From: Agathobacter sp.
Lineage (GTDB): Bacteria; Bacillota; Clostridia; Lachnospirales; Lachnospiraceae
NCBI GenBank assembly: GCA_017409825.1
Contig: JAFQRZ010000029.1
Coordinates: 1-64,000 of the forward strand
Direction: 5' to 3'
Length of the DNA stretch: 64,000 nucleotides
The notes under the pieces were generated by a model, which saw only the letters and a program-made list of their open reading frames with translations, had not been told where the DNA came from and did not search any database. Below, piece after piece: positions 40,903 to 57,916 of the stretch (position 1 is its first letter; the number at the start of each line of letters is the position of its first letter). Both the position numbers and the translations under genes were made by a program.

Positions 40903-40948
40903 GATATTCCCCCATCTAAAAAAAGTTTTAAAATCCGTATAAAAATGA

Positions 40949-41066: not shown

Positions 41067-41079
41067 GGGAGTGAATTTG

Positions 41080-41700: not shown

Positions 41701-41713
41701 AAATGGAGGTCAA

Positions 41714-42166
41714 ATGGTTCTGACAAGACAGGTATTAGAAGATTATCAAAAATTGGGGCGTGAAATTGCCCGAATTAATAAAAAACTCGATTATTATGCA
41801 AATACCCCATTGAAAGCCCAACATGGTATCGTAAAAGGTTCTACAAAAGGCTTTCCATACACGGAACGTCGTATTGAGGTAGGAGCCCCTAGCATCGCAG
41901 ACACGAAGCAGCGGGAGCAAAAGGTGAGAGAACTGATGATTCAGCTTGGCAATAGGAAAAAGGAGTATGAGCAACTGAAATTTGATATCGATATCGAGAT
42001 AGAAGAGATAGAAGATATGGAAATGCGTCAGATATTGCAGTATAGATACATAGATGAAATGACAATCGCGGAAATAGGAGAATCCATCGGCTATGACCGA
42101 AGCACCATCTCCAAAAAAATAGACCGATTCCTAGACAAACAGGTTTCCCCCACTTCACATTTATAG
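41714..42166 (+). CDS. ArpU/sigma region-4-like late activator
   Basis: The 150-residue protein has a coiled-coil N-terminal half (LEDYQKLGREIARINKKLDYY and EQKVRELMIQLGNRKKEYEQL) and a C-terminal sigma-70 region-4-like helix-turn-helix (LQYRYIDEMTIAEIGESIGYDRSTISKKIDRF). This layout matches DUF1492/ArpU-type phage regulators that switch on late genes. GGAGG lies before the ATG. It is 13 bp after the SSB gene and directly precedes the tail genes, as such regulators precede packaging and tail genes in intact phages. It is a candidate activator for the dyad-containing cargo promoters; that is inference. Confidence 0.8.
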   Translation: MVLTRQVLEDYQKLGREIARINKKLDYYANTPLKAQHGIVKGSTKGFPYTERRIEVGAPSIADTKQREQKVRELMIQLGNRKKEYEQLKFDIDIEIEEIEDMEMRQILQYRYIDEMTIAEIGESIGYDRSTISKKIDRFLDKQVSPTSHL

Positions 42167-42194
42167 TGTGCTAGGATGACTATTGTAAAGAATT

Positions 42195-42617
42195 ATGTTT
42201 AGAGAGGAGGTGACGGACATTCTTAGCGTAAGAGAGTTGATATACACACGATTAACCCAAAGACTTCTGGAAGACGAGGGCGCACCTTATACCGCAGAAA
42301 CATTACATCTGACGGAAACAAAAAAAGGTGTACCTACAGAGTTTCCAGCCTTGCACATAGATTTTATCGGTGAAACGAGTACTGCAGGAGATTTGGAAAA
42401 GACACAACAGAATGCGATTATTTCGACCATCGAATTAAAAGCATATTCCGATACATCGCTTGGAGAGGCAAGCGAAATTTTAGATAAAGCAGGTGATGTG
42501 ATGATTGCCATGGGCTACTCTGTGATTCAGGGGCCAGAAGATGTATCAGACACAAACCATGCCAAATCGGTACGTTTCCGCCGAACCATTGGAGACGAAG
42601 ATATCAAATATTTATAA
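42195..42617 (+). CDS. Tail terminator protein
   Basis: The 140-residue protein fits the tail terminator/minor tail (gpU-like) slot just before the tail tube. It shows ILSVRELIYTRLTQRLLE, a FPALHIDFIGE strand, IISTIELKAYSD and a final SVRFRRTIGDEDIKY strand, like small phage proteins that cap tail polymerisation. The annotated ATG at 42195 has only a weak AAAG upstream, whereas a strong GAGGAGG (42204-42210) sits inside the frame and is followed eight bases later by an in-frame ATT at 42219. Initiation at AUU would give 132 residues and parallels the flippase at 4059. The role is assigned mainly by position. Confidence 0.65.
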   Translation: MFREEVTDILSVRELIYTRLTQRLLEDEGAPYTAETLHLTETKKGVPTEFPALHIDFIGETSTAGDLEKTQQNAIISTIELKAYSDTSLGEASEILDKAGDVMIAMGYSVIQGPEDVSDTNHAKSVRFRRTIGDEDIKYL

Positions 42618-42644
42618 AAATCAAGAATTAGGAGGTAATTTAAC

Positions 42645-43139
42645 ATGGCAAGTACAAGTTATTTAGCAAGAGTAATTATTAAGGAGCACACAGACACAGG
42701 AGCAACTACAGATTTCACAGGAAATTACAAATTATTGATCAAAGCAAAATCAATTCCAGCACCTGTATCTGCACCAAACACAGTAGAAAGCACTACTCTC
42801 GAAGATGATACACAGACCTTTGAAATGGGCATCAAGACATCTGACAAGAGAGAAGTCAAAGGTAATCTTGAAAAAGAATACTTACAGGCAATTAACGAAA
42901 TGGCTGGTAAGAAAATCGACATCATCCACATGTATGGTACAGACGGTGTCGGCGGCGTAGCGAAATACGCTTATGTAGGACAGGTAGTAGCTACTCCAGA
43001 TGAAGTAGGCGGAAATGATGAAATCATCGGCATGACAGCAACTATCATTCCAAACACCGTAGCAGTAGAATGTACCGACGAATATGTCGTAACAGACAAC
43101 AAAGACGGCACATTCACTGTAGCAAAAGCAAATGCGTAA
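42645..43139 (+). CDS. Major tail tube protein
   Basis: The 164-residue protein is the probable tail tube subunit. It starts TSYLARVIIKEHT, has alternating beta strands typical of the tube fold (YKLLIKAKSIPAP, VESTTLEDDTQTFEMGIKTSD, KIDIIHMYGTDG) and ends in a short VVTDNKDGTFTVAKANA strand. AGGAGGT stands before the ATG and codon use is strongly optimised, as expected of the most abundant protein of the particle. No sheath gene is next to it, so the tail is non-contractile. Confidence 0.87.
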   Translation: MASTSYLARVIIKEHTDTGATTDFTGNYKLLIKAKSIPAPVSAPNTVESTTLEDDTQTFEMGIKTSDKREVKGNLEKEYLQAINEMAGKKIDIIHMYGTDGVGGVAKYAYVGQVVATPDEVGGNDEIIGMTATIIPNTVAVECTDEYVVTDNKDGTFTVAKANA

Positions 43140-43197
43140 ATCAGCATAAGGGAGACAGGAAATGTCTCCCTTTTCTCAAAAAGGAGGAGAGCATACA

Positions 43198-43638
43198 ATG
43201 TATAAACTTAAAATGAAAGACAAAGAATACGAGATTAAATTCGGATATAAGCCAACCCTGAAAGCCAACCTGATTTCACGCATGATTCAGGCTGGCAGTA
43301 ATGTTTCCCAGCAGGGAGAAGGCAGTGAGACCCTTTTGCAGGTAGAAGAAATGCTGCTGCTCATTCCAGAAATCATTCTGGTAGGATTGCAGAAAAACCA
43401 TAAGGATGAATTTGGATATGATTATGACACCGACGAAGGCAAGACGACTGCCTTGGACAAGGTTTTCGATATGATGGACGACTACTTCGAGGAAGAAAGT
43501 GCAGACATTCTCCAGTTGTACAATGATTTGCAGAACGAGATGTTGAGCGAGGGTTTTTTAAAGAGTATGTTCCAGAGGGAAATGGCGGAACAGAAGAAAG
43601 CGAACAAGAAGAATACCAAGAAAACTCCTCAGAATTAA
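43198..43638 (+). CDS. Tail assembly chaperone, short form (gpG-like)
   Basis: The 146-residue protein lies between the tube and tape measure genes, the standard place for the G chaperone, and begins YKLKMKDKEYEIKFGYKPTL. It is rich in acidic and leucine residues (VEEMLLLIPEIILVGLQKNH) and ends in a lysine-rich tail. The AAGGAGGAG spacing selects the ATG at 43198. A T TTT TTA slippery sequence at 43554-43560 in the correct frame lets a fraction of ribosomes shift -1 into the downstream frame, giving a longer GT form. It should bind the tape measure and recruit tube subunits. Confidence 0.87.
   Translation: MYKLKMKDKEYEIKFGYKPTLKANLISRMIQAGSNVSQQGEGSETLLQVEEMLLLIPEIILVGLQKNHKDEFGYDYDTDEGKTTALDKVFDMMDDYFEEESADILQLYNDLQNEMLSEGFLKSMFQREMAEQKKANKKNTKKTPQN
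43554..43560 (+). promoter_or_regulatory. Programmed -1 ribosomal frameshift site T TTT TTA
   Basis: The zero-frame codons are TTT (43555-43557) and TTA (43558-43560), preceded by T43554, an exact X XXY YYZ heptamer. The -1 frame has its last upstream stop at 43524-43526 and is then open to 44036. Chaperone G/GT frameshifting at this point is conserved in siphoviruses. Confidence 0.85.
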
Positions 43639-44036
43639 ACTGGTCCACCTATGTAGCTGAAATAAGACCGTATTGGCTGATGGTGACGAAAGGATATGGT
43701 TTCTCCATCCACGATATTGATTGTGCATGTCCAGCGGACTTGGAACCATACGCACAGGCTCACAAAATGGAGCTCAAGGGAAATGATAACATGGCATGGA
43801 TGTATTGTGGTAATTATGTCCTCAGTGCGATATCGGTCGCGTTAGAACACTGCCTGGCAGGCAGCAAGGCGAGATCAGAATATTTAAAAGAACCAGTTCT
43901 GACACGGCTTGGGGAATATGATGGTCTCACACAGGCAGAAATTGACGAAAGAGAGCTCCGAAAAATGCTTCTCGCAGAGAAACAGTGGCAGATGGTGGGC
44001 GATAGGAGTCATTTGTCGAAGACGGAATTGAAATAA
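43560..44036 (+). CDS. Tail assembly chaperone T extension (expressed by -1 frameshift)
   Basis: This -1 frame segment encodes 158 residues joined after Leu121 of the G product, giving a 279-residue GT protein. It starts with an acidic linker (KEYVPEGNGGTEESEQ), then WSTYVAEIRPYWLMVTKGYGF, DIDCACPADLEPYAQAHK and MAWMYCGNYVLSAISVALEHCL, a pattern seen after the chaperone in many Firmicutes siphoviruses. The in-frame ATG at 43680 has no ribosome binding site, so separate initiation is unlikely. The stop codon lies directly before the hairpin at 44038. Confidence 0.82.
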   Translation, partial: KEYVPEGNGGTEESEQEEYQENSSELNWSTYVAEIRPYWLMVTKGYGFSIHDIDCACPADLEPYAQAHKMELKGNDNMAWMYCGNYVLSAISVALEHCLAGSKARSEYLKEPVLTRLGEYDGLTQAEIDERELRKMLLAEKQWQMVGDRSHLSKTELK

Positions 44037-44037
44037 G

Positions 44038-44063
44038 GCATCTACTTAGGTAGGTGTCTTTTT
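44038..44063 (+). terminator. Cassette hairpin 1
   Basis: An 8-bp stem with two G-T pairs (44038-44045 with 44050-44057) around TTAG is followed by C and T5. Similar hairpins at 46227 and 50829 stand before the two tape-measure genes. This one instead precedes the first cargo block. Confidence 0.75.
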
Positions 44064-44179
44064 ATACAAGATTATCTTCACCCCATTCACAACTTTGGTA
44101 GTGTTGAGAAAATTACGAAATGGTTGAAATAAAAACAGATAAATAAAAATATACAAACTTTTAAGAGGAGAAATTCAAT

Positions 44180-44923
44180 ATGAGTAAGAAAAATGAAACG
44201 GTAGATGGTGCTAAAGAACCAATTTTTAAAAGGTGGTGGTTTTGGGTAATCGTTGTAGCACTTGTATTTGGTAGAGGCGGAAATTCAGGAGATGACAAGG
44301 ATACCCAGATTTCTAATAATTCTTCGAAAAATAGTGAAAGCCAAATGGAAGATAAAAATAGTGAAAGCCAAGTGGTAGATAAAAATAGTGAAAGCCAAGT
44401 GGTAGATAAAAATAGTGAAAGCCAAGCGGCAGATAATAATAGTTCTAATCAGGATGCGACAGATAAAGAAGCGAGTACAAATGAATCAAGTTTAACAATG
44501 GGTCAGAGAAATGCTTTGAAAAAAGCGAAAAGCTATTTGCAAGTCATGGATTTTTCCTATAAGGGATTGTTAGAACAGTTAAAATATGAAGGTTTTACGA
44601 CAGAAGAAGCAACTTTTGCGGTAGATAATTGCGGTGCTGACTGGAAGAAACAGGCATTAGAAAAAGCAAAAGATTATTTGGACACTATGGCTTTTTCTTA
44701 TAAAGGATTGTTAGAACAGTTAGAATATGAGGGTTTTACAAACGAGGAAGCTACATATGGTGTGAACAATTGTGGGGCGAACTGGAAGGAACAGGCCGCT
44801 AAAAAGGCAAAGGATTATTTAGATATAATGTCTTTTTCGAGAGAAGGGTTAATTGAGCAGCTTGAATACGAAGGTTTTACGGCAGAAGAAGCAGAATATG
44901 GTGTTACAGCTATAGGTTATTAA
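44180..44923 (+). CDS. Membrane-anchored Ltp-repeat protein (superinfection-exclusion-like)
   Basis: The 247-residue protein has a short cytoplasmic start, one membrane segment (about 17-31, RWWFWVIVVALVF), a polar linker with four copies of DKNSESQ, and three tandem Ltp helix-turn-helix repeats from residue 107. Each repeat has the form AKxYLxxMxFSxxGLxEQLxYE followed by GFTxEEAxxxV. Pfam's Ltp family includes the lipoprotein of Streptococcus phage TP-J34, which blocks DNA injection and acts on the tape measure. The usual lipobox Cys is absent, and a transmembrane helix replaces it. The gene lies between the tail chaperone and the tape measure. A role in exclusion or self-protection is inferred. 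Confidence 0.8.
   Translation: MSKKNETVDGAKEPIFKRWWFWVIVVALVFGRGGNSGDDKDTQISNNSSKNSESQMEDKNSESQVVDKNSESQVVDKNSESQAADNNSSNQDATDKEASTNESSLTMGQRNALKKAKSYLQVMDFSYKGLLEQLKYEGFTTEEATFAVDNCGADWKKQALEKAKDYLDTMAFSYKGLLEQLEYEGFTNEEATYGVNNCGANWKEQAAKKAKDYLDIMSFSREGLIEQLEYEGFTAEEAEYGVTAIGY
44330..44440 (+). repeat. 27-bp coding tandem repeat
   Basis: Four near-identical 27-bp units encode DKNSESQVV-type repeats in the linker of the Ltp protein, a flexible spacer lifting the Ltp domains off the membrane. Confidence 0.85.
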
Positions 44924-44941
44924 TTGTTGAAAAATTATTAT

Positions 44942-44983
44942 CCAATATGGTATGCATGCTTTTATATTATGTGATATGATTTT
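44942..44983 (+). promoter_or_regulatory. Cargo promoter 1 (dyad plus extended -10)
   Basis: TATCCAATATGGTA (44942-44955) is followed exactly 23 nt later by TATGAT (44978-44983) in the context ATGTGATATGAT. It matches the promoters at 45554 and 49729 in spacing and extended -10. It precedes the decayed zinc-ribbon gene. Confidence 0.65.
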
Positions 44984-45032
44984 TTATGATAAGCAATTAT
45001 ATATTGATAAAATTGTACTTAAGGAGAGGTAT

Positions 45033-45433
45033 ATGGATAGTAATGAATTAGATGCAATCGCGAAAGAAGTGCATATGAGTTATTATAGTAAGGGAAAGTT
45101 TGGAAAAGATCGAGAAGAGATTAAAGAGATATGTTAGCGGACCGGAGTTGATAAAGAAAGGCAATTGAAAAGATTAAACACCCATATGGAACTGGAATAA
45201 ATTATAGAGGTCCTGTTCCAAAGAAGCGTTGTCCAAAATGCCGAAGTGAAAAATTTCATGCGTTCGTACATGAAGAGGTAATTAGAGAGGGAATAGTAAA
45301 GACACATACTTCTTTAAATTTGAATCCATTCAAACCATTCACAATTTTTAATCATAGGCCAAAAGTTATCAGAAAACCTATAACGAAACAAGTAAGCAAG
45401 TTTGTTTGTGATAATTGTGGAGAAATCTTTTAG
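45033..45433 (+). pseudogene. Frameshifted zinc-ribbon protein gene
   Basis: An ATG at 45033 with AAGGAGAG upstream opens a 34-residue frame (MDSNELDAIAKEVHMSYYSK) that stops at 45135-45137. A second frame, open from 45155 to the stop at 45431 without any standard start codon, encodes IKHPYGTGINYRGPVPKKRC and then CPKCRSEKFHAF and FVCDNCGEIF, a two-CxxC zinc ribbon. The two parts look like one former gene broken by at least one frameshift near 45135-45155. The promoter at 44942 is intact, so the loss appears recent. The original function is unknown. Confidence 0.65.
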
Positions 45434-45553
45434 ATATTAATACTATTTGTAGCTATGTTTTCACCCCATTCACAGATTAGGTATGTTAAAATATATAGTG
45501 TAAAAAAGTACGCAAAACATAGCTTTGGGTATAGGCATAAAAAATACAAATAT

Positions 45554-45595
45554 TACCATATTCGGTATGCAAATACTTTTCTAATGTGTTATAAT
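45554..45595 (+). promoter_or_regulatory. Cargo promoter 2 (dyad plus extended -10)
   Basis: TACCATATTCGGTA (45554-45567) lies 23 nt before TATAAT (45590-45595), context ATGTGTTATAAT. Upstream are TTCACCCCATTCACA (45460-45474) and TAAAATATATAGTGTAA (45487-45503), both repeated before the third cargo gene. Confidence 0.72.
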
Positions 45596-45626
45596 TCCTT
45601 AAAAATAAGGAAAGGAGAAAAATCTT

Positions 45627-46184
45627 ATGAAAAGAAAATTAATACTTGTATTTGTTCTATGCATGTGCTTTTTAGTAGGCTGTGGCGGAAATGATGACGA
45701 GAAAGATAAGGGGAAAAATACAGAAACGAAGCAGGAGAGTGAAGTAGATACAGAAGCAGAAAAAATTGCGAATATGACAGAGGAAGAGTATAAAGCGTAC
45801 TGTGAGGTAATGTATAATAAAGAAATTTTTGAAAGAGATGATATAGAGGGAAAACATATCAAAATATATGGTTTTATTGCTGGAAAATATCGATATACAG
45901 ATTCATCTACATTTGGAATGGTAATAAATGATTTAACGAAAAAATATGATTTGGATACGAAGTATCTTGACCTTGGAGTTGCTCATGAGGGAAAAGGAAG
46001 TTATGCTGGAGATGGCGTGTATCTGTTATTTGATAATGAAGGTGATTTGTCTATTGATGACTACGAAAGTGGATTGGAGATTATTGTATATGGTGAAGTA
46101 GTTCAATGTTGGAATGGACCATTTGTTATTCCGAAATATATAGAAATATCAGAAATTGCGTTTCCTCATTTAGAAATGAAATAG
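45627..46184 (+). CDS. Lipoprotein with OB-fold-like domain
   Basis: The 185-residue protein has a lipoprotein signal peptide with lipobox LVGC and Cys19 as the lipidation site, a charged linker (about 20-50), and a C-terminal domain with strands HIKIYGFIAGKYRY, GDGVYLLFD and LEIIVYGEVVQCWNGPFVIPKY, resembling the OB-fold tRNA_anti-like group seen in clostridial lipoproteins. AGGAAAGGAG sets the ATG. It is exposed outside the cell and has its own dyad promoter. It sits between the tail chaperone and the first tape measure, so it may be an exclusion or immunity factor; no direct evidence supports that. Confidence 0.72.
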   Translation: MKRKLILVFVLCMCFLVGCGGNDDEKDKGKNTETKQESEVDTEAEKIANMTEEEYKAYCEVMYNKEIFERDDIEGKHIKIYGFIAGKYRYTDSSTFGMVINDLTKKYDLDTKYLDLGVAHEGKGSYAGDGVYLLFDNEGDLSIDDYESGLEIIVYGEVVQCWNGPFVIPKYIEISEIAFPHLEMK

Positions 46185-46226
46185 AGTAAATGTGAATTAA
46201 AATAGAAAATAAGGAATTTAATTAAG

Positions 46227-46256
46227 AAGACATCTATTTAGGTAGATGTCTTTTTT
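46227..46256 (+). terminator. Cassette hairpin 2 before tape measure 1
   Basis: A perfect 10-bp stem (46227-46236 with 46243-46252) ends in T6. It lies 33 bp before the tape-measure start and would separate cargo transcription from the tail gene, or act as an attenuator. Confidence 0.82.
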
Positions 46257-46288
46257 ATATGTCAAGAATTAAGAAAGAAGGTGAAAAA

Positions 46289-49200
46289 ATGGCAGAGAGC
46301 ATTGACAAAAAGCAATTAGAAGAGATTACAGAAGAAATGACAAATGCACTCAATGCGACAAGTAAATTGCAAGAAGAGGTAAGTGATTTAAATACTACTG
46401 TGAAAAAAATAGACATTAGTAAGCTGAGTGATATGACGGATGCTTTAGTACAAAGTAGGGATGCCGCAAAAGAAGCGTCAAATAATTCATCAGGACTAGT
46501 TACTGCTATGGAAAAGCTTTCTCAGAAGATGCCAAATATTAAAACAGCGGTGGATAAGATTACGCAATCTGTACCAAATATCAAGACAGTAATTGATGGT
46601 ATTTCAAAAAAATTACCAGATGTGAAGAAAACGATGGAGAATATTTACAAGGCGACAGAAAGTACAGAAGAATATTTCAAGTCATTTAATTACTATACAG
46701 ATACTTTCGGTGAAATTGCGTCGAAGTGGGATAAAGATTTTGAAACCTATGGGTCAGAAAATGCAAAGAAATATTCTAATACGTTTGTTCAGCAGATGAA
46801 TGAAAGTTTAGGCAAATTATCTGGAATGAAAGTAAGTCTGTCGGTAGATATGGAAAGTGGTATTTTAACAGAAAGTGGCATGAAAGACTTGGGATTAAAT
46901 GTTCAGGAGGTGACACAATTTGTTGCAGAGTTCGCTTCTATCTCAAATTCAATGGGGCAGACAGGGGATGTTTCTCTTGCAATTGCTGATGTATTTACCA
47001 AGTTAGCAGGAGATTTGTCGTCGTATTTTAATGTTGATTACAGTACAATAATGGAGGATTTACAAAACGCTCTCTTAGGACAGACCGATGCATTAGAGGA
47101 ATATAGAATTAATCTATCTGATGTCCAATTACAAACATTAGCCTATGAATATGGGATTGAAAAGTCGGTAGAGGATATGACTCAGGCAGAAAAAGCACAG
47201 TTAAAAATGATTGCGATTCTAAAGCAGTCAGATGCGTATTGGGGAAATTTGGCAGATACTATAAATACACCAGCAAATACATTCCGCGAATTAGCGAACA
47301 ACTGTAAAGAAGTAGTTACAGTATTTGGACAGTTATTTATGCCTGTTTTAGAGCAGATACTACCATTTGTTGATGGTGTTGTTATTGCAATAGGAAATCT
47401 TTTAACAAGTATCGCTGGATTTTTTGGAATAAAAGTCAACATGGATGATATGGGCATTGGAACAGATGGCGCATCCGCTGAACTAGAAGCAAATCATGGT
47501 GGAGAAACTGCTTATACAATAGAATACAATAGTTCTTTTAGCCTTGCAGATGGTTTCTTAGAAGAAGTGTCGCTATATGAGGAAGTTTGGAATCAGGCGT
47601 ATGAAAATATGAATAAGAAATCTCAGGAATGGGCAGATAAGGTAGATACGTTCTTCGGACCAGTGAAATCCATTTTCTCAAGCTTGGCAATTGGGGATTA
47701 TGTCAGTGTTGGAGAAAACGTAGGATTACTTGCAATTAGTATCATGGATTTCTTTAAAAATGCGATTGATAGTGTAGATTGGCAGGCAGTTGGAGAAAAG
47801 ATAGGGGAATTCCTTGAAGGAATAAATTGGACAGAAGTATTCTCTTCTATTGGTGAGTTAGTAGGTGAAGCAATTGGTTCAGCATTTGAAGTCTTAGGTA
47901 GTATTTTCGATGCTGCACCTTTGGAAACAGGAATTGTGACAGCGATTGGTCTTATCAAATGGACTGGATTAGGGAAGGCAATCTCATCAGGTAGTTTATT
48001 CAAGAGTTTAGCTACATTGTTTTCAGGGCAATTGCTAGAAGGGAATGGCTTTTTCTCAAAACTGGGAAATGCATTCGCATTGACAATTGGTGATGCAGGT
48101 GATTTTGGCGACGCGTTAATAACAGAGTTCGAAGGATTGGGTGGCATAGTTAAGATTGTGACGGCTGTTGGGTCAAAGATAAGACAGGTCGTTAGCGAAA
48201 TAGGTACAGGTATGAGGGATTTCCTTTCTGTGATTAGGTTGGTTTTGAGAGCAGTTGCAGAAAAGGTGGGGGCTCTTATACCTAAAATTGTAGGTGAAAT
48301 GACATCTGCCCTTAGTAAAGCAGGTGTATTTATTAAGTCCATTATAACATTCCTCCAACCATTTGCAGCTGCAATTGCAAGTGTAGTAGTAATTATAGCA
48401 GGTATCGCTTTCGCAGTGAGCAATTTTGTTACAATGTTCCAAGAGGGCTTTAGCTGGGTAAATGAAGCTATCATGCTTGTTGGAATTGCACTTGCTGCTG
48501 TGGGGGCAATATTTTTAGGGGCGCCTGCGTTAGTTTCTGGTATTGTAGCTGGTATTGTAGCAGTAGTAGCGACCCTAGTGGTGATAATTAAAGAAAACTG
48601 GAATGAAATATGTGCATTTATCTCAAGTGCAATAGGTTTGATTGGTGAAATGTTTGTGCTATGGGGAGTTGGTATCGTAAATAATTTTAAAGCAGTTGTT
48701 TCGATTATTGGATCGGTACTAAAAGAATTATGGAATTCCATCAAAGCAATATTTGAATCTCTAAAAACTATTTTTTGCGGATTCATTGAATTTATAACAG
48801 GAGTTTTTAGTCTAGATTGGAAAAAAGCATGGAATGGACTGGTTAATATTTTTTCTGGAATATTTGGGACTATTAAAAATGTTTTAATAATGCCATTGAA
48901 TGCTGTGATTGCATTGATTGAAACATTAGTTAATAAGATTATTGGAGGATGGAATTCTCTCGTAAAAGCTCTTAATAAATTCAGTATTGATATCCCAAGT
49001 TGGGTACCTGAAATAGGTGGAAAGAAATTTGGTATAAATATAAAAACGGCATCTACAATTACGATTCCACGTTTTGCCTCCGGTGGATTCCCAGAAGATG
49101 GTTGGTTCCGTGCGAGCCACGGTGAAATCATGGGTCGATTTGACAATGGACAGTCAGTAGTTGCCAATAATATGCAGATTACGGAGGGGATTGCTCGAGG

Positions 49201-49372
49201 CGTAAGAGAAGCAGTTTCGGGAGTTTTAATTCCATACTTAGCGGATATTGCGGATAGTTCAAGGAGAACTGCAAATAAGGATTTTACTGTTGCTAGTAGG
49301 GATGTATTCGAAGCTGTAAGAGCCGAATCAAGCAATTATACACGAAGAACGGGTGAATTAGCTTTTATTTAG
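46289..49372 (+). CDS. Tape measure protein 1 (long)
   Basis: The 1027-residue protein is the larger tape measure. Residues 1-130 are coiled-coil-like (LEEITEEMTNALNATSKLQEEV and repeats of KMPNIKTAVDKI). The central region has typical siphovirus tape-measure sequence (NVDYSTIMEDLQNALLGQTDALEEY) and hydrophobic blocks near 345-385, 685-715 and 729-767 that would insert into the target membrane. The end has GGFPEDGWFRASHGEIMGRF, NGQSVVANN and FEAVRAESSNY. AAGAAGG fixes the ATG at 46289. By the rule of about 1.5 angstrom per residue the tail would be near 150 nm. Its 3' end shares 98 identical bases with tape measure 2. Confidence 0.88.
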   Translation: MAESIDKKQLEEITEEMTNALNATSKLQEEVSDLNTTVKKIDISKLSDMTDALVQSRDAAKEASNNSSGLVTAMEKLSQKMPNIKTAVDKITQSVPNIKTVIDGISKKLPDVKKTMENIYKATESTEEYFKSFNYYTDTFGEIASKWDKDFETYGSENAKKYSNTFVQQMNESLGKLSGMKVSLSVDMESGILTESGMKDLGLNVQEVTQFVAEFASISNSMGQTGDVSLAIADVFTKLAGDLSSYFNVDYSTIMEDLQNALLGQTDALEEYRINLSDVQLQTLAYEYGIEKSVEDMTQAEKAQLKMIAILKQSDAYWGNLADTINTPANTFRELANNCKEVVTVFGQLFMPVLEQILPFVDGVVIAIGNLLTSIAGFFGIKVNMDDMGIGTDGASAELEANHGGETAYTIEYNSSFSLADGFLEEVSLYEEVWNQAYENMNKKSQEWADKVDTFFGPVKSIFSSLAIGDYVSVGENVGLLAISIMDFFKNAIDSVDWQAVGEKIGEFLEGINWTEVFSSIGELVGEAIGSAFEVLGSIFDAAPLETGIVTAIGLIKWTGLGKAISSGSLFKSLATLFSGQLLEGNGFFSKLGNAFALTIGDAGDFGDALITEFEGLGGIVKIVTAVGSKIRQVVSEIGTGMRDFLSVIRLVLRAVAEKVGALIPKIVGEMTSALSKAGVFIKSIITFLQPFAAAIASVVVIIAGIAFAVSNFVTMFQEGFSWVNEAIMLVGIALAAVGAIFLGAPALVSGIVAGIVAVVATLVVIIKENWNEICAFISSAIGLIGEMFVLWGVGIVNNFKAVVSIIGSVLKELWNSIKAIFESLKTIFCGFIEFITGVFSLDWKKAWNGLVNIFSGIFGTIKNVLIMPLNAVIALIETLVNKIIGGWNSLVKALNKFSIDIPSWVPEIGGKKFGINIKTASTITIPRFASGGFPEDGWFRASHGEIMGRFDNGQSVVANNMQITEGIARGVREAVSGVLIPYLADIADSSRRTANKDFTVASRDVFEAVRAESSNYTRRTGELAFI
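49091..49206 (+). repeat. Direct repeat copy 1 in tape measure 1
   Basis: Positions 49103-49200 are identical to 52183-52280 (98 bp, offset 3080). Including flanks, 49091-49206 has two mismatches to 52171-52286. It encodes GWFRASHGEIMGRFDNGQSV and the following VANNMQITEGIARGVR in both genes. Confidence 0.93.
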
Positions 49373-49497
49373 TGAAAAGCTGTTTACAGAATAAAGTAGA
49401 CAGCAATTATTATGAAAATTGTGATCTGCGATTGACAGATTATGTAAAGACTGATAAAACAATTAGCTTTGGTTATGAGGTTGTTTTTCGAAAATAG
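49372..49497 (+). pseudogene. Remnant of a cargo gene 3' end
   Basis: A GTG overlapping the tape-measure stop (TAGTG) opens a 41-codon frame whose last part, YYENCDLRLTDYVKTDKTISF and GYEVVFRK, reads like the end of a DUF4352/DUF5067-type surface domain rather than random sequence. No start signal or upstream part is present. I read it as a leftover of an older cargo gene. Sequence to 49570 shows nothing else recognisable. Confidence 0.35.
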
Positions 49498-49728
49498 CAT
49501 ACAATATGTCCTAAATGATATGAGAAAAACGTTTTATTTAAGTGTATAAACTGTGATTAAGATTATGATTTAGCAGGTGTCTTTTTATATGCAGGATTAT
49601 TTTCACTTCATTCACAATCGAAAGATGCTAAAATATATAGTGTAAGAAAGTGTGCAAGAGTAAATTCTATTTTGTGACTCTGATAGCGTGCTAAAAATCT
49701 CTTTTAGACCATAAAAATTTAGAATTAT

Positions 49729-49770
49729 TACCATATTTGGTAGTAATATAAGAAAAGAATGTGGTATAAT
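49729..49770 (+). promoter_or_regulatory. Cargo promoter 3 (dyad plus extended -10)
   Basis: TACCATATTTGGTA (49729-49742) lies 23 nt before TATAAT (49765-49770), context ATGTGGTATAAT. Upstream are a degenerate hairpin arm (AGGTGTCTTTTT, 49575-49586), TTCACTTCATTCACA (49602-49616) and TAAAATATATAGTGTAA (49629-49645), matching the block before 45627. Confidence 0.72.
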
Positions 49771-49800
49771 TCTTTTAAAACAAGAATGGAGGAGGAAGGT

Positions 49801-50784
49801 ATGGAAGAAGAAATTAAGAAAAAACCATATGGAATATGGTCTTTAGTTCTTGGAATAATTAGTATAGTGCTTTTCCTTAATGTTTCGTGGCTTGCACTTC
49901 TTACGAGTATAGCGGGAATTGTTTTGGGAGTATTAGGAGTATCAAATGGAAAGAAAGGTATATCAATTGCTGGTCTTATTTGTTCTGCGATTCCTGCACT
50001 GATTTTCTTTGTAATGATGTTAATAGTTATAGCTGGAAGTGGAACGTATACTCCTGACACAGAAAACTCAGAAGCGGATGAAGTAATTTACTTGCAAGAT
50101 TCTGAAATTGATAATGCATATGCTTCACCAGATAGTTATGCGGGAAAGTATATTGCTATTGGTGGTATAGTATTTGGAGAACCAGAAATTCATGAAGACC
50201 AAGTATATTTCCAAATGTATGGAGATGCAGTGAATAATGAGAAAAATACAATAGTGCGTTTTATTGGACAGGTAGACGTATCGGCTGGTGATTATGTTAA
50301 GGTAGAGGGGAAGATTGTAGGTTCGACGGAATATAAGAATATGCTTGGTGGAACTTTAACTGCATTGTTAATTGAGACAAAGAGTGTGACTGAAAGTACT
50401 TATATTGAATGTTGTTCACCAACCATCAAAGAAGTGGTATTAGACAAAACAATTGATCAATATGGTTATGCTGTTACTGTGAACAAGATAGAGTTTGCGG
50501 AAGCGGAAACGAGATTATACTTAACTGTAACCAACAATGGAAAAGATAATTTTAGTGTTTATCCATTTAAAATCAAAATTGTTCAAAACCAGAAGCAATA
50601 TGAATATAAATTCAACTTTGATGCGGATTATGAAGAACTCCAGACGGATTTACTGCCAGACACAAGCTCATCTGGTATTATAGTATTTCCACCAATGGAT
50701 CCAGAGATGGGGTTGAAAATTTACTGTAAAGGAAGTTGTGATGATTGGTCTGTTGATTTAGAAGACTATGTGTTTGAATATTAG
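49801..50784 (+). CDS. DUF4190-like membrane protein with OB-fold-like and Ig-like domains
   Basis: The 327-residue protein starts with a DUF4190-like pair of membrane helices (about 10-80: GIWSLVLGIISIVLFLNVSWLA and a second GLICSAIPALIFFVMMLIVIAG) joined by GVSNGKKG. An external OB-fold-like domain follows (about 100-205: YAGKYIAIGGIVFGEP and GDYVKVEGKIVG). The last 110 residues resemble DUF4352-type Ig-like domains (EVVLDKTIDQYGYAVTVNKIEF, LYLTVTNNGKDNFSVYP). GGAGGAAGG fixes the ATG at 49801. Like the lipoprotein at 45627 it presents an OB-like domain outside the cell next to a tape-measure gene and has the same promoter type, so the two are functional counterparts by inference. Confidence 0.75.
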   Translation: MEEEIKKKPYGIWSLVLGIISIVLFLNVSWLALLTSIAGIVLGVLGVSNGKKGISIAGLICSAIPALIFFVMMLIVIAGSGTYTPDTENSEADEVIYLQDSEIDNAYASPDSYAGKYIAIGGIVFGEPEIHEDQVYFQMYGDAVNNEKNTIVRFIGQVDVSAGDYVKVEGKIVGSTEYKNMLGGTLTALLIETKSVTESTYIECCSPTIKEVVLDKTIDQYGYAVTVNKIEFAEAETRLYLTVTNNGKDNFSVYPFKIKIVQNQKQYEYKFNFDADYEELQTDLLPDTSSSGIIVFPPMDPEMGLKIYCKGSCDDWSVDLEDYVFEY

Positions 50785-50828
50785 TAAATTTAAGAAAGCT
50801 AAAGTAAAATAAGGCATTCGACAGTGAA

Positions 50829-50858
50829 AAGACATCTACAAACGTAGGTGTCTTTTTT
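50829..50858 (+). terminator. Cassette hairpin 3 before tape measure 2
   Basis: An 11-bp stem with one G-T pair (50829-50839 with 50844-50854) around AAAC ends in T6. It stands in the same position relative to its tape-measure gene as the hairpin at 46227. Confidence 0.85.
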
Positions 50859-50889
50859 ACACTCAAAATTTAGAAGGAAGGTGACAGAA

Positions 50890-52452
50890 ATGAGTAAAAA
50901 CATGAATCAACTTTCGAATAGGACGATGGTTGAAATGATTAGGATGAATGATGCAATAGGAAAAAATGTAACTAAAATGGATAGAGCATTTGCATCGCTT
51001 TATAGTACTACTTTAAAATGTGGAGAAATATGGATGAAAACGGAGGAGAATATTAGCAATCTCACACTACAACTTGAAATAAGTTTAGTAAGTACATTTG
51101 AAACATTAGAGAAAATATCAGGAGAAATGTTGGATGATTTTCTTAGCACAGCGGAAAATGTGGACAAATTAGTTTCTAAGCTTGATGAATTTGTTGCAAA
51201 AATAGAAATACCTTCAATGGCAGTTGGAGGAGAAGAAAGTAGTAGTGGTGGTTTTCTTGAAAAGGAGTTAGCGGAGACAGTCGAAAATGGAATAGACATA
51301 AGTGATAGCATTAATCAATTGGAACCTTATATTCAAGAAAAGTTAGAAGATTGGTTGGAGATTGATGATGATGATATTCCATTATTATCTATGTTTTCTA
51401 AGCTCGCATTAGCATTCTATTACAATCTGGGAAAAGAATATGGAGAATTACTAAATAATGTTCATGAAGTAGGAGAAGAAGCTAGGGAGAGCAGTGGAAA
51501 AGGTGTGATGGATAAGGCTGCATTATATCTATATGATACAGAAAAGGTTAATACAGAAGTTCAGCAAGCACAAGTAGATGTTTTGGGAGAAAAAATATCT
51601 GGTCTGACGGATAAAGTAAAATTATTTCAACAGGAAACGACTACCGCAAATGATACGATAACGCAATCTTATGCAGATATGATTACTGGAATCGGAAAAA
51701 AAGTTGAAACATATCAAACAGATATCCAAGCTGCCAATGATGCAGTAACCCAATCTTATGCAGAAATGTTTTCAAATATGGGAACGAATGTAGCGACTTG
51801 GTGGACAGAAGATGTTTCACCGTGGTTTACTGCAGAAAAATGGCAAGAACTTGCAAGTGGTATGCAAATAGGATTATTCAATAAGTGGTTAGAAACAGAA
51901 TTATGGTGGGATGAAAACGGAGAATTGTCTGAAATTACGGTAGGGCTTTCCGACTTCCTAACAGAAACAATGGAAAAATGGCAAGAACTTCACTATTGGT
52001 GGAAGAATGATAAAAAAGGATTGGATGATTTAAAACTTGGAATAAAAATACCTAAGTTTAAAATAACCTTTGATGCGAAAGATGATTATGCTGATATTTT
52101 TAAGTTGTTTGGCTTAAATGGGACACCCAAATTCTCATTTGTATACAAAAAATACGCCACTGGCGGTTTCCCAGAAGATGGCTGGTTCCGTGCGAGCCAC
52201 GGTGAAATCATGGGTCGATTTGACAATGGACAGTCAGTAGTTGCCAATAATATGCAGATTACGGAGGGGATTGCTCGAGGGGTAAGGAATGCGAACTCAG
52301 AGCAAAACGCTCTTCTAAGAGAGCAGAATGCTCTTTTAAGACAGATTCTTGCGAAGGACACAGGGATTTCCACGAGAGCTGTTTTTGAGGCCGTGCGAAG
52401 TGAAAACCGGGATTACATTAATAGAAATGGGGAGAGTGCATTTGCATTTTAA
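50890..52452 (+). CDS. Tape measure protein 2 (short)
   Basis: The 520-residue protein has the same C-terminal signature as tape measure 1 (GGFPEDGWFRASHGEIMGRF, NGQSVVANN, VFEAVRSENRDY) but an unrelated, half-length body. Residues 1-60 are helical and polar. A 29-residue repeat occurs at 253 and 282 (ANDTITQSYADM, ANDAVTQSYAEM). Trp-rich segments follow (ATWWTEDVSPWFTAEKWQEL and ETELWWDENGEL), as in the periodic part of many Firmicutes tape measures. Long membrane-spanning blocks are lacking. GAAGGTGA sets the ATG at 50890. A tail built on it would be about 78 nm. It could be an alternative tape measure or a recombination donor. Confidence 0.78.
   Translation: MSKNMNQLSNRTMVEMIRMNDAIGKNVTKMDRAFASLYSTTLKCGEIWMKTEENISNLTLQLEISLVSTFETLEKISGEMLDDFLSTAENVDKLVSKLDEFVAKIEIPSMAVGGEESSSGGFLEKELAETVENGIDISDSINQLEPYIQEKLEDWLEIDDDDIPLLSMFSKLALAFYYNLGKEYGELLNNVHEVGEEARESSGKGVMDKAALYLYDTEKVNTEVQQAQVDVLGEKISGLTDKVKLFQQETTTANDTITQSYADMITGIGKKVETYQTDIQAANDAVTQSYAEMFSNMGTNVATWWTEDVSPWFTAEKWQELASGMQIGLFNKWLETELWWDENGELSEITVGLSDFLTETMEKWQELHYWWKNDKKGLDDLKLGIKIPKFKITFDAKDDYADIFKLFGLNGTPKFSFVYKKYATGGFPEDGWFRASHGEIMGRFDNGQSVVANNMQITEGIARGVRNANSEQNALLREQNALLRQILAKDTGISTRAVFEAVRSENRDYINRNGESAFAF
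52171..52286 (+). repeat. Direct repeat copy 2 in tape measure 2
   Basis: This is the second copy of the 98-bp identical block (52183-52280). Same orientation and reading frame as 49103-49200, so recombination would leave an intact hybrid tape-measure gene and remove 3080 bp. Confidence 0.93.
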
Positions 52453-52473
52453 ATGAATGATTAGGAGGTATAT

Positions 52474-52884
52474 ATGGCATTTAACGGATATTTATTAAAG
52501 ATGGGAGAGGATATATTTCCTCTCTTTTTTGTTTTCAAAGAAAGCTACAAAGTAGTACCAAACAGAAGAGTGGATTTAGATAGTTCTAGGAATGCAAATG
52601 GGAAATTGCAGAGAAATGTATTGGACCATATGCCTAGCACGATCTCTTTCCAAACAAAACCGATGTGGAATGACGAATTAAATGAGATGATGTCATTCAT
52701 TCGCAGTCATTTCTCGGTCGAGAAAGAAAAGAAGATGATTCTGGAATATTACTGTCCAGATACCGATGACTACAAGACTGGGGAGTTCTATGTTCCAGAT
52801 ATAGAGTACTCTATCAGTCGAGTTGATTTGGAGAACAACAAAATTTTTTACAATGGATTCCAACTTGAGTTCATTGAATACTAA
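52474..52884 (+). CDS. DUF6711-type distal tail protein
   Basis: The 136-residue protein begins AFNGYLLKMGEDIFPLFFVF and contains ESYKVVPNRRVDLDSSRNANG, LQRNVLDHMPSTISFQT and FYVPDIEYSISRVD, which fits the DUF6711 group of small phage tail proteins encoded right after tape measures in clostridial siphoviruses. It takes the place of the distal tail (Dit) protein, though it is shorter than classical Dit. AGGAGGT stands before the ATG. The stop is 15 bp from the next start. Its structural role is inferred from position. Confidence 0.72.
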   Translation: MAFNGYLLKMGEDIFPLFFVFKESYKVVPNRRVDLDSSRNANGKLQRNVLDHMPSTISFQTKPMWNDELNEMMSFIRSHFSVEKEKKMILEYYCPDTDDYKTGEFYVPDIEYSISRVDLENNKIFYNGFQLEFIEY

Positions 52885-52899
52885 GAAAGGAGGTGGATT

Positions 52900-55023
52900 A
52901 TGCTTAATGTTTCGAAAGAATTGAAAGAAGCCTTTTTAAGTGCTGAGCAGAAGAATTTAGTATTGACCTTTGATGATGGAACAGTGATTGACAATGAAGA
53001 TATAGCATCGGAGAGCATGGAATTAGAGCAAACGCTCTGTGATAGTGATGAACTGAAGTTTGGGAAAGTATCAAGTGCCTGTTTTAAGACAAAAATTGCT
53101 GCATCAACCAAGAGGTACAAGAACCTTTGGTTCAATGCAAGTATTGGTGTAGGCGAATATGAGATACAGCTTGGTAGATTTAAGGTTTATACCGATAACA
53201 TGACTTCTGATCGCTTATATCGAGAGATTGTGGCGTATGATAGTTTGTTCTGGGCGACGAATACAGATGTTACAGAATGGTACAACGGACTTGCCTTCCC
53301 TATTTCGCAGAAAGCATTTAGAGATAGTTTGTTTGCGTATTTAGGAATCGAGCAAGAAAGTGTAGAGTTGCCAAATGATAGCATTTCTTTTCAGCGTACT
53401 GTGGATGCTGAAAATCTAACAGGGCTGACTGTATTACAAAAGTTATGCGAGCTGAATGCAGCATGGGGTGTTATCAATAATGCGGGTAAGTTCAAATATG
53501 TGCATATGCGAACCCATGAACATGATGCTTTATATCCAAGCGACGATTTATATCCAAGTGACAATGTATACCCTGATGATATTTACGATGATAGATTGTC
53601 AAAAGCGGATTATTACCAGGGATCATTAACGTATAAGGAGTTTGATGTACAATCTATTTCAAAGGTCACGATTAGAGAAGATTCCGAAGATGTAGGATAT
53701 TCATACGGTGTGGATGGAAATACCTACGTCGTAGAAGGGAACTTCTTGTTGTATGGTGCGACAGCCGCTACATTACAGATGGTTACTAAGAATTTTTACG
53801 AGTATGCCAGCTATCTGGATTACACTCCGTCACAACTCAAATGTAAAGGCGCACCTTGGAGAGAAGTAGGGGATTTGCTTAGAGTAATTGCAGATAAGCG
53901 AGTGCTCACAGTTCCTATCTTCAACCGCCAGTTAAATGGTATAACTGCTTTAAATGATACCTATATTGCTAGGGGGGCAGAGACCTGTGGCGAAATGAAA
54001 AACAGTCCTACTGAGCAGCTAAAACAGTTGCAGAGCAAAACAAATAAGCTGACACGTACGCTGGATGAAACGAGGTCAGAGATGCAGAAGTTTGAAACTG
54101 ATGTAAATGGACAGTTAAATAGTATGTCCAGTACTATTTCTCAAACTGCAGAAAAAATTTCACTTGACGTTTCTAAGAGCTTGGAGAATTACTCAACCAA
54201 AGAAGAAATGAATAGTGCTATACAAGTTAAGGCTGATAAGATTAGTTTAGAGGTTGGTAAAAAGGTTGGAAATAATGAAGTTATTTCTGCAATTAATCAG
54301 ACTGCAGAAGATATAACTATTGATGCAAGTAAAATAAATCTTCGTGGAGTTGTTACTGCGAATAATTATTTTAAGATAAATGAAGAGGGTTCTATGGAAT
54401 CCACTGGCGGTAAGATTGCAAATTGGGATATTAAGTCGGATTACTTAGGTTCATATGGAGAGGCTGCTGACACATTATTTTTGTCACAAAATGGTAAAAA
54501 TGCGTATATAAATGCATTAAATGCTTCAAAAGACTGTAATATTTATGCTAAAGGAAATTTTGCGGTAGATACAACCGGAGTGGCTTATATGACTAATGCT
54601 AATATCAGTGGTGTGCTTACAGCTGGTAAAGGTTCCTCTCTTGGAGGATTTTCTGTAGATGATGATTCGCTATTTTCGGGAAAATGGGGAAATCATACAA
54701 TGCCAGATGTTTTCATGTGCACTGGTGCACCTGGTTCATATTATGTCGGCGATGAGTTAGTTACGGGTTTAGCATTTGGTGCTGGAGGAAAATTCGGTGT
54801 AACTAAGAATGGCGCTTTATATTCAAAAAATGGCAACATTGGCGGGTTCGACATTAATGGTTCATATCTAGGTGGTGCAGCAAATACAGGCGGTTATGTT
54901 GTTGCATTTTATCCAAAAGGAACTCCATTAGATGGAACTACTTTCTTTTTGGTGATTTATAAAGACAGTGTCTATGGTGATGCTGTTGGTGGGATTTGTT
55001 TATCAGGATGGAGAACTCTATAG
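52900..55023 (+). CDS. Tail hub/spike protein (Tal-like)
   Basis: The 707-residue protein probably forms the tail tip. The first 380 residues resemble hub/endopeptidase-tail (Tal) proteins: LSAEQKNLVLTFDDGTVIDN, FGKVSSACFKTKI, YEIQLGRFKVYTDNMTSDR, and a repeat DALYPSDDLYPSDNVYPDD. A coiled coil (about 370-440, LKQLQSKTNKLTRTLDETRSE) leads into a beta-rich stalk with INLRGVVTANNYFKIN, GGKIANWDIKSDYLG and GNIGGFDINGSYLGG motifs common in gp58-like tail spikes. AAAGGAGG precedes the ATG. No clear peptidoglycan hydrolase domain is visible. Confidence 0.82.
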   Translation: MLNVSKELKEAFLSAEQKNLVLTFDDGTVIDNEDIASESMELEQTLCDSDELKFGKVSSACFKTKIAASTKRYKNLWFNASIGVGEYEIQLGRFKVYTDNMTSDRLYREIVAYDSLFWATNTDVTEWYNGLAFPISQKAFRDSLFAYLGIEQESVELPNDSISFQRTVDAENLTGLTVLQKLCELNAAWGVINNAGKFKYVHMRTHEHDALYPSDDLYPSDNVYPDDIYDDRLSKADYYQGSLTYKEFDVQSISKVTIREDSEDVGYSYGVDGNTYVVEGNFLLYGATAATLQMVTKNFYEYASYLDYTPSQLKCKGAPWREVGDLLRVIADKRVLTVPIFNRQLNGITALNDTYIARGAETCGEMKNSPTEQLKQLQSKTNKLTRTLDETRSEMQKFETDVNGQLNSMSSTISQTAEKISLDVSKSLENYSTKEEMNSAIQVKADKISLEVGKKVGNNEVISAINQTAEDITIDASKINLRGVVTANNYFKINEEGSMESTGGKIANWDIKSDYLGSYGEAADTLFLSQNGKNAYINALNASKDCNIYAKGNFAVDTTGVAYMTNANISGVLTAGKGSSLGGFSVDDDSLFSGKWGNHTMPDVFMCTGAPGSYYVGDELVTGLAFGAGGKFGVTKNGALYSKNGNIGGFDINGSYLGGAANTGGYVVAFYPKGTPLDGTTFFLVIYKDSVYGDAVGGICLSGWRTL

Positions 55024-55055
55024 TTATTCAATAAAGTGCAAAAATTAATAATGTA

Positions 55056-55096
55056 AGGCTGCCATGCATCATCAATCAACGCATGACAGTCTTTTT
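55056..55096 (+). terminator. Hairpin between hub and fibre genes
   Basis: A 12-bp stem with one mismatch (55056-55067 with 55081-55092) ends in T5. It lies inside the tail operon, so it is probably an attenuator that lowers fibre expression or a processing site. Confidence 0.65.
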
Positions 55097-55116
55097 CTAT
55101 AAGGAGGTAGCAAAAA

Positions 55117-56559
55117 ATGCAAAAATTATATTCAAGAATAAATTGGGAAAACGAACCTAGTACAAACACAGCGATAAATGAAGATAACCTAAATAAGATG
55201 GATTATGCATTAGATCAGATTGACAATAGGGTTGTGAGTTTATCAGGATATGAAACACGAGCAGCGCAAAGTGAGGCGAATGCGACGGCTCGGGCGTTAG
55301 AGGCTAATGAAAAAGCAGAATTGGCAGGACAGCAGTCATTGATGGCGGAGTCGTATACACACGGCGGAACTGGTTTAAGAGAAAATGAAACGGTGGATAA
55401 TGCTCAATACTATTTAGAACAGGCAAAACAGATATCTCAGTCGATGAATGGACTTGTGCCTATGGGAACCATTGCATTTGCAGATTTATCTGCGACGAAA
55501 AATCAAGTGTCAAAATATATGTTTAATATATCCGACAGCTTTGTTACAGATGCAACATTTAAGGAAGGTGTCGGACACAGTTTTCCAGCGGGAACGAATG
55601 TATACCGCACAAATGACGGATATTGGGACTGTTTAGCTGGTTCATTCCAGACACCAAATGGAGATACGAAAGATAATATAGTGACGTTTACTCAAGCTTC
55701 CGTCAGAAGTAATATTGCTTCTGGCGAGAAGTTCTCGGTAATGTTTGGAAAGATTGCAAAGTTTTTTACTGACTTAAAAGCAGTGGCATTTAGTGGTAGC
55801 TATACTGATTTGAGCAACAAACCTACGATTCCAACAAAAGTTTCACAGCTTACAAATGACAGTGGTTTTAAAACAACAGACACAACCTACGGTGTAGTAT
55901 CAACAACAAGCAATGGACTATGTCCTAAGAGAAGTGGTACAACTACAAAATTCCTTCGCGATGATGGAACATGGGCAGTGCCTCCAGATACCAATACAGT
56001 ATATACTCATCCAACAACTGCTGGAAACAAACATATCCCAGCAGGTGGTTCAAGTGGACAGATTTTAAGATGGAGTGCTGCTGGTACTGCTGCTTGGGGA
56101 GCTGATAGCAATACAACATACAGTGCGGCTACAACAAGTGCGAATGGTCTTATGACGGCTGCGATGGTTACTAAATTAAATGGTATTGCTACAGGAGCTA
56201 CAAATTTTGATGGAAGTTGGGATGGCTCTAATTACAGTTATTATTTCAAGTTTACTGATGGTACTCTAATTTGTGTTAAAGGTGTCACTACAACTGTAGC
56301 TATTAATATTGCATGGGGTAGCATATATCAAAGCCCAGAAATATCATTGGGTACATGGGCATATTCTTTTGCATCAAATCCTTATGTTGTTCTTTGTCCA
56401 TATTTTTCTTTATCTGCTTCTGCAAAATATACGTCATGGGGAGCACAGGCAGGAAATGTTACTACATCAAGTGCTGGGACTACATATTTACATAGACCTG
56501 TATCTACTGTTTCTGCATCATATACGATAGATGTTATTGGTATTGGTAGATGGAAGTAA
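55117..56559 (+). CDS. Tail fibre / receptor-binding protein
   Basis: The 480-residue protein is the likely receptor-binding fibre. It starts with a virion-anchor segment shared by clostridial fibres (RINWENEPSTNTAINEDNLNK), then a coiled coil (about 50-110), a middle region with SYTDLSNKPTIPTKVSQLTND and FLRDDGTWAVPPDTN, and a repeat-like stretch with YTHPTTAGNKHIPAGGSSGQ ending in AAWGAD. The C-terminal 130 residues are Ser/Thr/Tyr-rich and beta-like and would contact the receptor. AAGGAGG precedes the ATG. Anchor and trimer-stalk features support the call; the receptor is unknown. Confidence 0.83.
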   Translation: MQKLYSRINWENEPSTNTAINEDNLNKMDYALDQIDNRVVSLSGYETRAAQSEANATARALEANEKAELAGQQSLMAESYTHGGTGLRENETVDNAQYYLEQAKQISQSMNGLVPMGTIAFADLSATKNQVSKYMFNISDSFVTDATFKEGVGHSFPAGTNVYRTNDGYWDCLAGSFQTPNGDTKDNIVTFTQASVRSNIASGEKFSVMFGKIAKFFTDLKAVAFSGSYTDLSNKPTIPTKVSQLTNDSGFKTTDTTYGVVSTTSNGLCPKRSGTTTKFLRDDGTWAVPPDTNTVYTHPTTAGNKHIPAGGSSGQILRWSAAGTAAWGADSNTTYSAATTSANGLMTAAMVTKLNGIATGATNFDGSWDGSNYSYYFKFTDGTLICVKGVTTTVAINIAWGSIYQSPEISLGTWAYSFASNPYVVLCPYFSLSASAKYTSWGAQAGNVTTSSAGTTYLHRPVSTVSASYTIDVIGIGRWK

Positions 56560-56575
56560 AGGAGGATAATATTTA

Positions 56576-57460: not shown

Positions 57461-57488
57461 AAGTAAATAAGATAGAGAGGTAAAGTAT

Positions 57489-57914: not shown

Positions 57915-57916
57915 TT

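Follow-up and report, generated by a model that had tools for sequence, protein, structure and literature searches.

The described systems closest to the locus reported here are the F-type tailocins (F-pyocin, Listeria monocin and rhizoviticin), with which it shares headless siphophage-like tail genes, regulator and lysis genes and a fixed chromosomal place, and the TP-J34 Ltp protein, with which one of its products shares PF07553 repeat domains and export. In the sections of PMC3952083 that treat this protein, the Ltp repeat domains block DNA injection by binding the tape measure, which is thus the TP-J34 target, and the ltp gene sits by the integrase in the lysogeny module. The window analysed here is a 64,000-nucleotide (nt) stretch of DNA from the gut bacterium Agathobacter sp. 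(positions 1 to 64,000 of contig JAFQRZ010000029.1, assembly GCA_017409825.1), which contains at 40534-58720, between host genes, a tail-type gene set with two tape-measure genes and without a head gene recognisable by Pfam or PHROGs. The literature searched, which extended neither to subscription papers nor to preprints, yielded no tailocin with linked immunity or superinfection exclusion and no phage with two tape measures; where the words "two tape measure" occur in PMC3271669 and PMC3447690, those passages refer to proteins of different strains or to mass-spectrometry homologues and not to two genes in one tail locus.

Read from its sequence, the stretch between the tail assembly chaperone and the tail tip is a recombining cassette array in a tailocin-type locus. 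An Ltp-type exclusion protein, a lipoprotein with an OB fold and a membrane protein of the DUF4352 family are encoded in it. Each cassette comprises a putative promoter region and a gene for a membrane-anchored protein, then a hairpin, and lastly either a whole tape-measure gene or only its 5' part.

Architecture of the cassette array

The array was compared with those of two relatives, namely L051, a single IMG/VR contig (L003, L047, L101 and others being the same contig), and L115, Agathobacter sp. RGIG4703 (the same contig as G007). In the window its order is hairpin, Ltp-type gene, OB-fold lipoprotein gene, hairpin, tape measure 1, zinc (Zn)-ribbon remnant, DUF4352 protein gene, hairpin and tape measure 2, with the following features (E, e-value; aa, amino acids; ORF, open reading frame):

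44035-44063, + strand: hairpin 1 with a T tract (z -5.1), of the same family as hairpins 2 and 3
44180-44923, + strand: Ltp-type superinfection-exclusion protein (PF07553 E 5e-53; phrog_4980 E 4e-72; solved chain 4eqq E 3e-14)
45553-45596, + strand: palindrome TACCATATTCGGTA, then an extended -10-like box, upstream of the lipoprotein gene (consensus match only)
45627-46184, + strand: OB-fold lipoprotein (lipobox in the sequence; OB-fold model)
46227-46255, + strand: hairpin 2, ahead of tape measure 1 (z -5.9)
46289-49372, + strand: tape measure 1, 1027 aa (phrog_1535 E 3e-35 and further tape-measure models; 6 hydrophobic segments)
49103-49200, + strand: 98-bp identical block, copy 1
49379-49573, + strand: Zn-ribbon gene remnant (78% nt identity to L051, where it is an intact 207-aa ORF)
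49593-52463, + strand: second cassette (membrane protein and tape measure 2), missing from L051
49728-49771, + strand: palindrome TACCATATTTGGTA, then an extended -10-like box (consensus match only)
49759-50784, + strand: membrane protein with OB-like and DUF4352 domains (DUF4352 E 7e-6, above its cutoff; two hydrophobic segments)
50829-50857, + strand: hairpin 3, ahead of tape measure 2 (z -6.1)
50890-52452, + strand: tape measure 2, 520 aa, C-terminal half tape-measure-like (37% identity to a prophage tape measure)
52183-52280, + strand: 98-bp identical block, copy 2

All 7 tape-measure starts in view (two in the window, three in L051 and two in L115) lie downstream of a gene for an exported protein and of a hairpin whose stem contains GACATCT. 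The L051 array begins with a Zn-ribbon gene, a lipoprotein, Ltp and two successive units of OB-lipoprotein and tape-measure remnant, and continues with a lipoprotein, a DUF4190-like membrane protein, a complete tape measure, a Zn-ribbon gene and the tip. That of L115 consists of Zn-ribbon, lipoprotein, Ltp, Zn-ribbon and an OB-lipoprotein with a remnant, followed by an OB-lipoprotein with a complete tape measure, a Zn-ribbon gene and, at the contig end, a further remnant end with a lipoprotein. The four tape-measure 5' remnants, two in each relative, stop at the same site, after GCGAC[AT]GAAAG and before CCAT (L051 6856 and 8020; L115 15470 and near its far end), and the upstream region of the next cassette begins directly there. 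A single ancestral event followed by duplication would explain this shared end, or there may be a site-specific process or a recurrent breakpoint at it. The head of the DUF4352 membrane protein is 93% identical in DNA to the membrane-protein head preceding the L051 tape measure. Between its pre-tip hairpin and the tip gene L051 has some tens of bases, where the window has 49593-52463 instead; the second, short tape measure belongs to this cassette, which lies directly ahead of the tail-tip gene.

We compared this arrangement with 13 loci that have a tape measure in view (L054, L078, L097, L098, L103, L106, L108-L113 and L116, with L111 and L112 almost identical). Each has one tape measure, recognised by size, place and, where matched, BLAST, with 0 to 2 genes between it and the chaperone; L108, L111 and L113 stop inside the tape measure, and L112 and L116 shortly past it. 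Of the IMG/VR loci with the major tail protein, L102, L104, L107 and L114, which end before any tape measure, and the unannotated L105 and L101 are outside this set. By eye, most of the 13 look like full prophages with head genes. A search with the tip protein matched four IMG/VR loci and none of the genome contigs, and IMG/VR searches with P0003 and A1 returned the known relative only. As a separate observation, the tape measure of the G378 prophage (L098 9964-16718) is split by an inserted 334-aa ORF that by eye is GIY-YIG nuclease-like.

The three strong hairpins (44035-50857) sit between chaperone and tail tip, inside the presumed late operon; expression of the genes for the tip and for lysis would depend on read-through or antitermination.

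The two tape-measure genes and their shared block

An earlier, sequence-only reading of this DNA had described two tape-measure-like genes sharing an identical 3' block, and our analysis bears this out. The ORFs lie at 46259-49372 (1037 aa; 1027 from the ATG at 46289) and 50848-52452 (534 aa; 520 from the ATG at 50890), and the similar hairpins (46227 and 50829) and leaders it had pointed to are present, with GAAGGTGA ahead of both ATGs. The block at 49103-49200 recurs at 52183-52280 over 98 nt, at an offset of 3080 and in the same frame; the other exact run of at least 12 nt at this offset is 49088-49101, and a longer repeat around the block extends to 131 nt at 95%, also in frame (self-BLAST E 4e-56, far beyond chance). 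Within the 2.8-Mb genome to which the window belongs, a 201-bp probe matched just these two places. The earlier description needs one correction: the two proteins are related over their last ~115 residues (59% identity, P0002 residues 419-532) and not merely within the block.

The two copies of the block differ at 0 of 98 positions, whereas the copy in tape measure 1 differs from L003 at 9 of 98 (8 silent) and from the L115 tape measure at 13 of 98 (12 silent), as counted by hand from codons. Homogenisation of the copies, or the origin of the second one, thus postdates the split of these lineages, in agreement with the recent exchange that had been proposed; in the second cassette, the 3' block of the short tape measure has been recently homogenised with that of the first. 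An assembly artefact as the source of the identical block or of the second cassette seems hardly credible. The genome is a draft in 36 contigs and exact repeats attract misassembly, but the two block copies have different flanking sequences up to their very edges, and any chimeric join would have to fall in the interval that separates the Zn-ribbon remnant from the second cassette, which holds only short, imperfect repeats.

The sequence-only reading had further suggested that recombination between the blocks, deleting 3080 bp, could switch tail length or tape-measure body. A 98-bp in-frame repeat that has been recently homogenised would suit such a switch, yet the hybrid is seen in neither of the two relatives with a complete tape measure, both of which carry the first-type C-terminal tail. 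Moreover, such a deletion would be one-way, and the array instead varies in the presence of cassettes and in its remnants. We consider this switch distinctly improbable.

Compared with its counterparts in L051 and L115, tape measure 1 has two conserved parts, residues 100-350 and 950-1037, and two variable ones, residues 1-100 and ~550-900, the second of which holds most of its hydrophobic segments. Both tape measures might function in parallel, so that one locus would yield two classes of particle, about 150 and 78 nm long: both ORFs are intact and they have in common the conserved C-terminal part, which by position is expected to meet the tail tip. However, tape measure 2 lacks the conserved core corresponding to residues 100-350 of tape measure 1, and we regard two particle classes as rather unlikely. 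An open antisense frame of 545 aa at 47698-49335 (- strand), inside tape measure 1, presumably arises by chance from codon bias.

Tape measure 2 adjoins the tail-tip gene on its upstream side and has C-terminal homology to tape measures, the two features by which it was classed as one: residues 276-532 align at 37% identity with the end of the G053 prophage tape measure, which its residues after the block also resemble, rather than tape measure 1. None of the tape-measure models of Pfam and PHROGs hit it at E 0.1 or below. It has no hydrophobic segment by the criterion that gives six in tape measure 1, and its residues 1-275 gave no homologue among 194 genomes, 26 IMG/VR loci and the loci compared locally. 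Its structure predicted alone has a mean predicted local distance difference test score (pLDDT) of 36 and is mostly helical only. In PADLOC, weak coiled-coil matches were obtained for tape measure 1 alone and none for the other five proteins.

The missing family match, hydrophobic segment and N-terminal homologue, together with the frequency of other remnants in the array, would fit a tape measure 2 without use in tails, left over from a moron cassette or carried along with one, and the array itself as an ordinary gain of morons by the tape measure. On the other side, its frame is intact over 520 codons behind a good leader, its C-terminal part is tape-measure-like and the block has been kept in frame. 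We view such a relic as a real possibility that falls short of being probable. Within the cassette-array interpretation, tape measure 2 would be either a shorter alternative ruler or a hitchhiker, and we make no choice between them.

Gene content and conservation of the locus

From its left end the locus comprises a repressor, an SSB-like protein, a sigma-like activator, a probable tail terminator, the tube, a chaperone and a probable second chaperone frame; its right part is the cassette array with both tape measures, followed by a DUF6711 tip, a tail protein, fibre-like genes, a holin and an amidase. Outside the array the features are:

38982-40247: host decarboxylase, left flank
40534-41019, - strand: CI-like repressor, start of the locus (HTH_3 E 2e-9; Phage_CI_repr E 2e-5; phrog_8)
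41071-41700, + strand: SSB-like protein (PF00436 E 3e-18)
41714-42166, + strand: sigma-like transcription activator (Sigma70_r4 E 5e-7; phrog_36)
42195-42617, + strand: probable tail terminator, by position alone, with no Pfam or PHROG match
42645-43139, + strand: major tail (tube) protein (phrog_158 E 7e-6)
43162-43638, + strand: tail assembly chaperone (phrog_183 E 1.5e-7; Phage_TAC_12 E 3.5e-4, below cutoff)
43680-44036, + strand: probable second chaperone reading frame, by position alone, with no family match
52474-52884, + strand: tail-tip protein in the Dit position, DUF6711 (PF20458 E 8e-41)
52900-55023, + strand: tail protein in the Tal position (phrog_18190, a PHROG of unknown function, E 3e-117)
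55117-56559, + strand: first fibre-like gene (weak PHROG matches)
56576-57460, + strand: second fibre-like gene (phrog_1348 tail fiber E 2e-4)
57489-57914, + strand: holin (PF05105 E 1e-29)
57917-58720, + strand: endolysin, an amidase (PF01520 E 2e-18)
58956-60179: host GDSL lipase, right flank

Scanning the major ORFs of 38982-60179, with the flanks read by eye, revealed no gene for a head, portal, terminase, sheath or integrase. The siphovirus setting assumed in the sequence-only reading is accordingly not supported, since no head, portal, terminase or integrase gene was detected between the host flanks, and for the same reason the product would be a tailocin. The genes provide for a non-contractile tail, a regulator and lysis functions without head, packaging or integration, as expected of the F type; tube, chaperone and tape measure were assigned through PHROGs and Pfam, and the tip through its position and DUF6711. 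By these annotations the locus corresponds in gene content to a headless F-type tailocin and not to a prophage, and such a headless tail is probably a weapon against relatives.

The tail machine (tube, chaperone and amidase) is under purifying selection. The tube protein has 99% aa identity in both L051 and L115, with ratios of nonsynonymous to synonymous substitution rates (dN/dS) of 0.015 and 0.009, respectively; corresponding values are 0.07 and 0.02 for the chaperone, and 0.07 (L051) for the amidase. The ratios are 0.20 and 0.16 for Ltp, 0.28 and 0.31 for the OB-lipoprotein, 0.38 and 0.32 for the tape measure, and 0.37 for the fibre. The left host flank is the same in another species, the decarboxylase having 98% aa identity in L115. 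Matches to the major tail protein occur in 3 of 62 genus genomes, two of them at least 99% identical, and in 9 of 397 sampled family genomes, the window's own genome being included in both counts.

Exported proteins and possible kin protection

The Ltp-type protein is recognised by its PF07553 repeats at 177.6 bits against a cutoff of 23.2. The solved chain 4eqq that it also matches is the TP-J34 protein. Near the N terminus of the window's Ltp-type protein is a hydrophobic stretch, RWWFWVIVVALVFG, which is below the 19-residue threshold, and no lipobox was seen there. Tandem repeats of 27 bp at 44327-44461 encode its spacer KNSESQVVD. The Ltp family search matched 53 of 397 family genomes, its own included, and contexts were inspected in 21 of the 52 others (including L098) and in 12 of 24 IMG/VR loci, by eye except for L131 and L098. 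Two other lineages have Ltp near a tape measure in a tail module, directly after it in L131 and one gene further in L098. In the former, an unrelated IMG/VR contig, the Ltp gene (L131 2808-3707) lies between the tape measure and a minor tail protein.

The OB-lipoprotein model, built from 5 sequences, has a pLDDT of 73.5, with template modelling (TM) scores by query length of 0.30-0.43 to the OB folds of tRNA synthetase, CST and RPA and up to 0.61 to siphovirus proteins; since the OB fold is common, no function follows from it. Full-length matches to this protein number three in 294 genomes, all at this locus (two in G007 and one in the window), while matches in the other genomes are partial, extending at most over roughly the first half of the model and mainly over the signal peptide. 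Taken together, the membership in the Ltp family, the published target of Ltp, the confinement of the OB-lipoprotein to this locus and the occurrence of Ltp near tape measures elsewhere suggest that the membrane-anchored proteins of the array would act at the membrane on incoming tails. Because tailocin producers die and their kin must survive, the likely use of these proteins would be kin protection.

We propose that the membrane proteins would be made from their own promoters in resting cells and would stop the cell's own or kin tailocins, as well as phages with similar tape measures, at the membrane in the manner of TP-J34 Ltp. The hairpins would limit resting transcription into the tape measures, which upon induction would be made through read-through, and exchange of tape-measure ends and bodies would diversify the killing or entry part. 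Whether the array indeed both exchanges tape-measure segments and carries kin-protecting proteins appears to us evenly balanced. We are doubtful of a fuller form, in which immunity is co-encoded, anti-tape-measure membrane proteins protect kin, cassettes change weapon and protection together, and the short tape measure serves as a second warhead in a shorter tail.

Several observations weigh against this proposal. The same set of genes would be accounted for by a role in defence against phages instead of tailocins. Using 72-residue tape-measure heads, no co-variation was detected with the OB-lipoprotein ectodomains in 5 pairs (r -0.10; 71 of 120 permutations at least as high), so that cognate pairing of lipoprotein and head is not supported by the permutation test; between L051a and L115a the ectodomains are 86% alike and the heads 47%. 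Charge complementarity between Ltp and tape measure is likewise unsupported: the Ltp repeats have a net charge of -9, and the last 100 residues of the tape measures -1 and 0, a nearly neutral C terminus as against the positive one reported for P008. Among the contexts inspected, a tape measure lies close to Ltp in 1 of 21 from other Lachnospiraceae and in 1 of 12 from IMG/VR, and many Ltp genes are lone chromosomal genes. L097 (G434), the closest other headless-looking locus, is without cassettes. The promoter consensus scan showed no enrichment (36 found against 44.8 expected), and a simple terminator scan listed none of the three hairpins, though they fold well. Finally, the palindrome TACCATATNNGGTA has 10 distinct sites in the genome (control 0), of which three are in the locus (40286, 45554 and 49729) and seven outside it. 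With these seven of ten outside, and their neighbours mixed by eye, we rejected it as a tailocin-only operator; it may belong to a host regulon or be a spread element. Judged by eye, the genes close to the outside sites include a NACHT-like one, a recombinase and one resembling a sensor.

A tailocin with linked immunity, if true, would be new. Here a tailocin operon holds a relative of a tape-measure-blocking protein next to the tape measure, so that the open question of how producers of tail weapons spare their kin becomes testable at this locus, which would also show where tape-measure diversity arises.

With polymorphic toxin and bacteriocin loci carrying orphan immunity genes, the locus shares an array of membrane-protein genes and partial effector genes with homologous ends, but the effector here would be a tape measure, and cognate pairing is unsupported. 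The morons of lambdoid and other phages are genes with their own promoter and terminator inside a late operon, an arrangement that the present cassettes may share; in contrast to morons, these cassettes carry 5' parts of tape measures and recur in tandem. Unlike TP-J34 Ltp, the Ltp-type protein is encoded beside a tape measure in a headless tail operon, has three repeats and shows no lipobox. Lastly, in gene arrangement the locus differs from F-pyocin, Listeria monocin and rhizoviticin in its exported-protein cassettes around the tape measure and in its two tape-measure genes.

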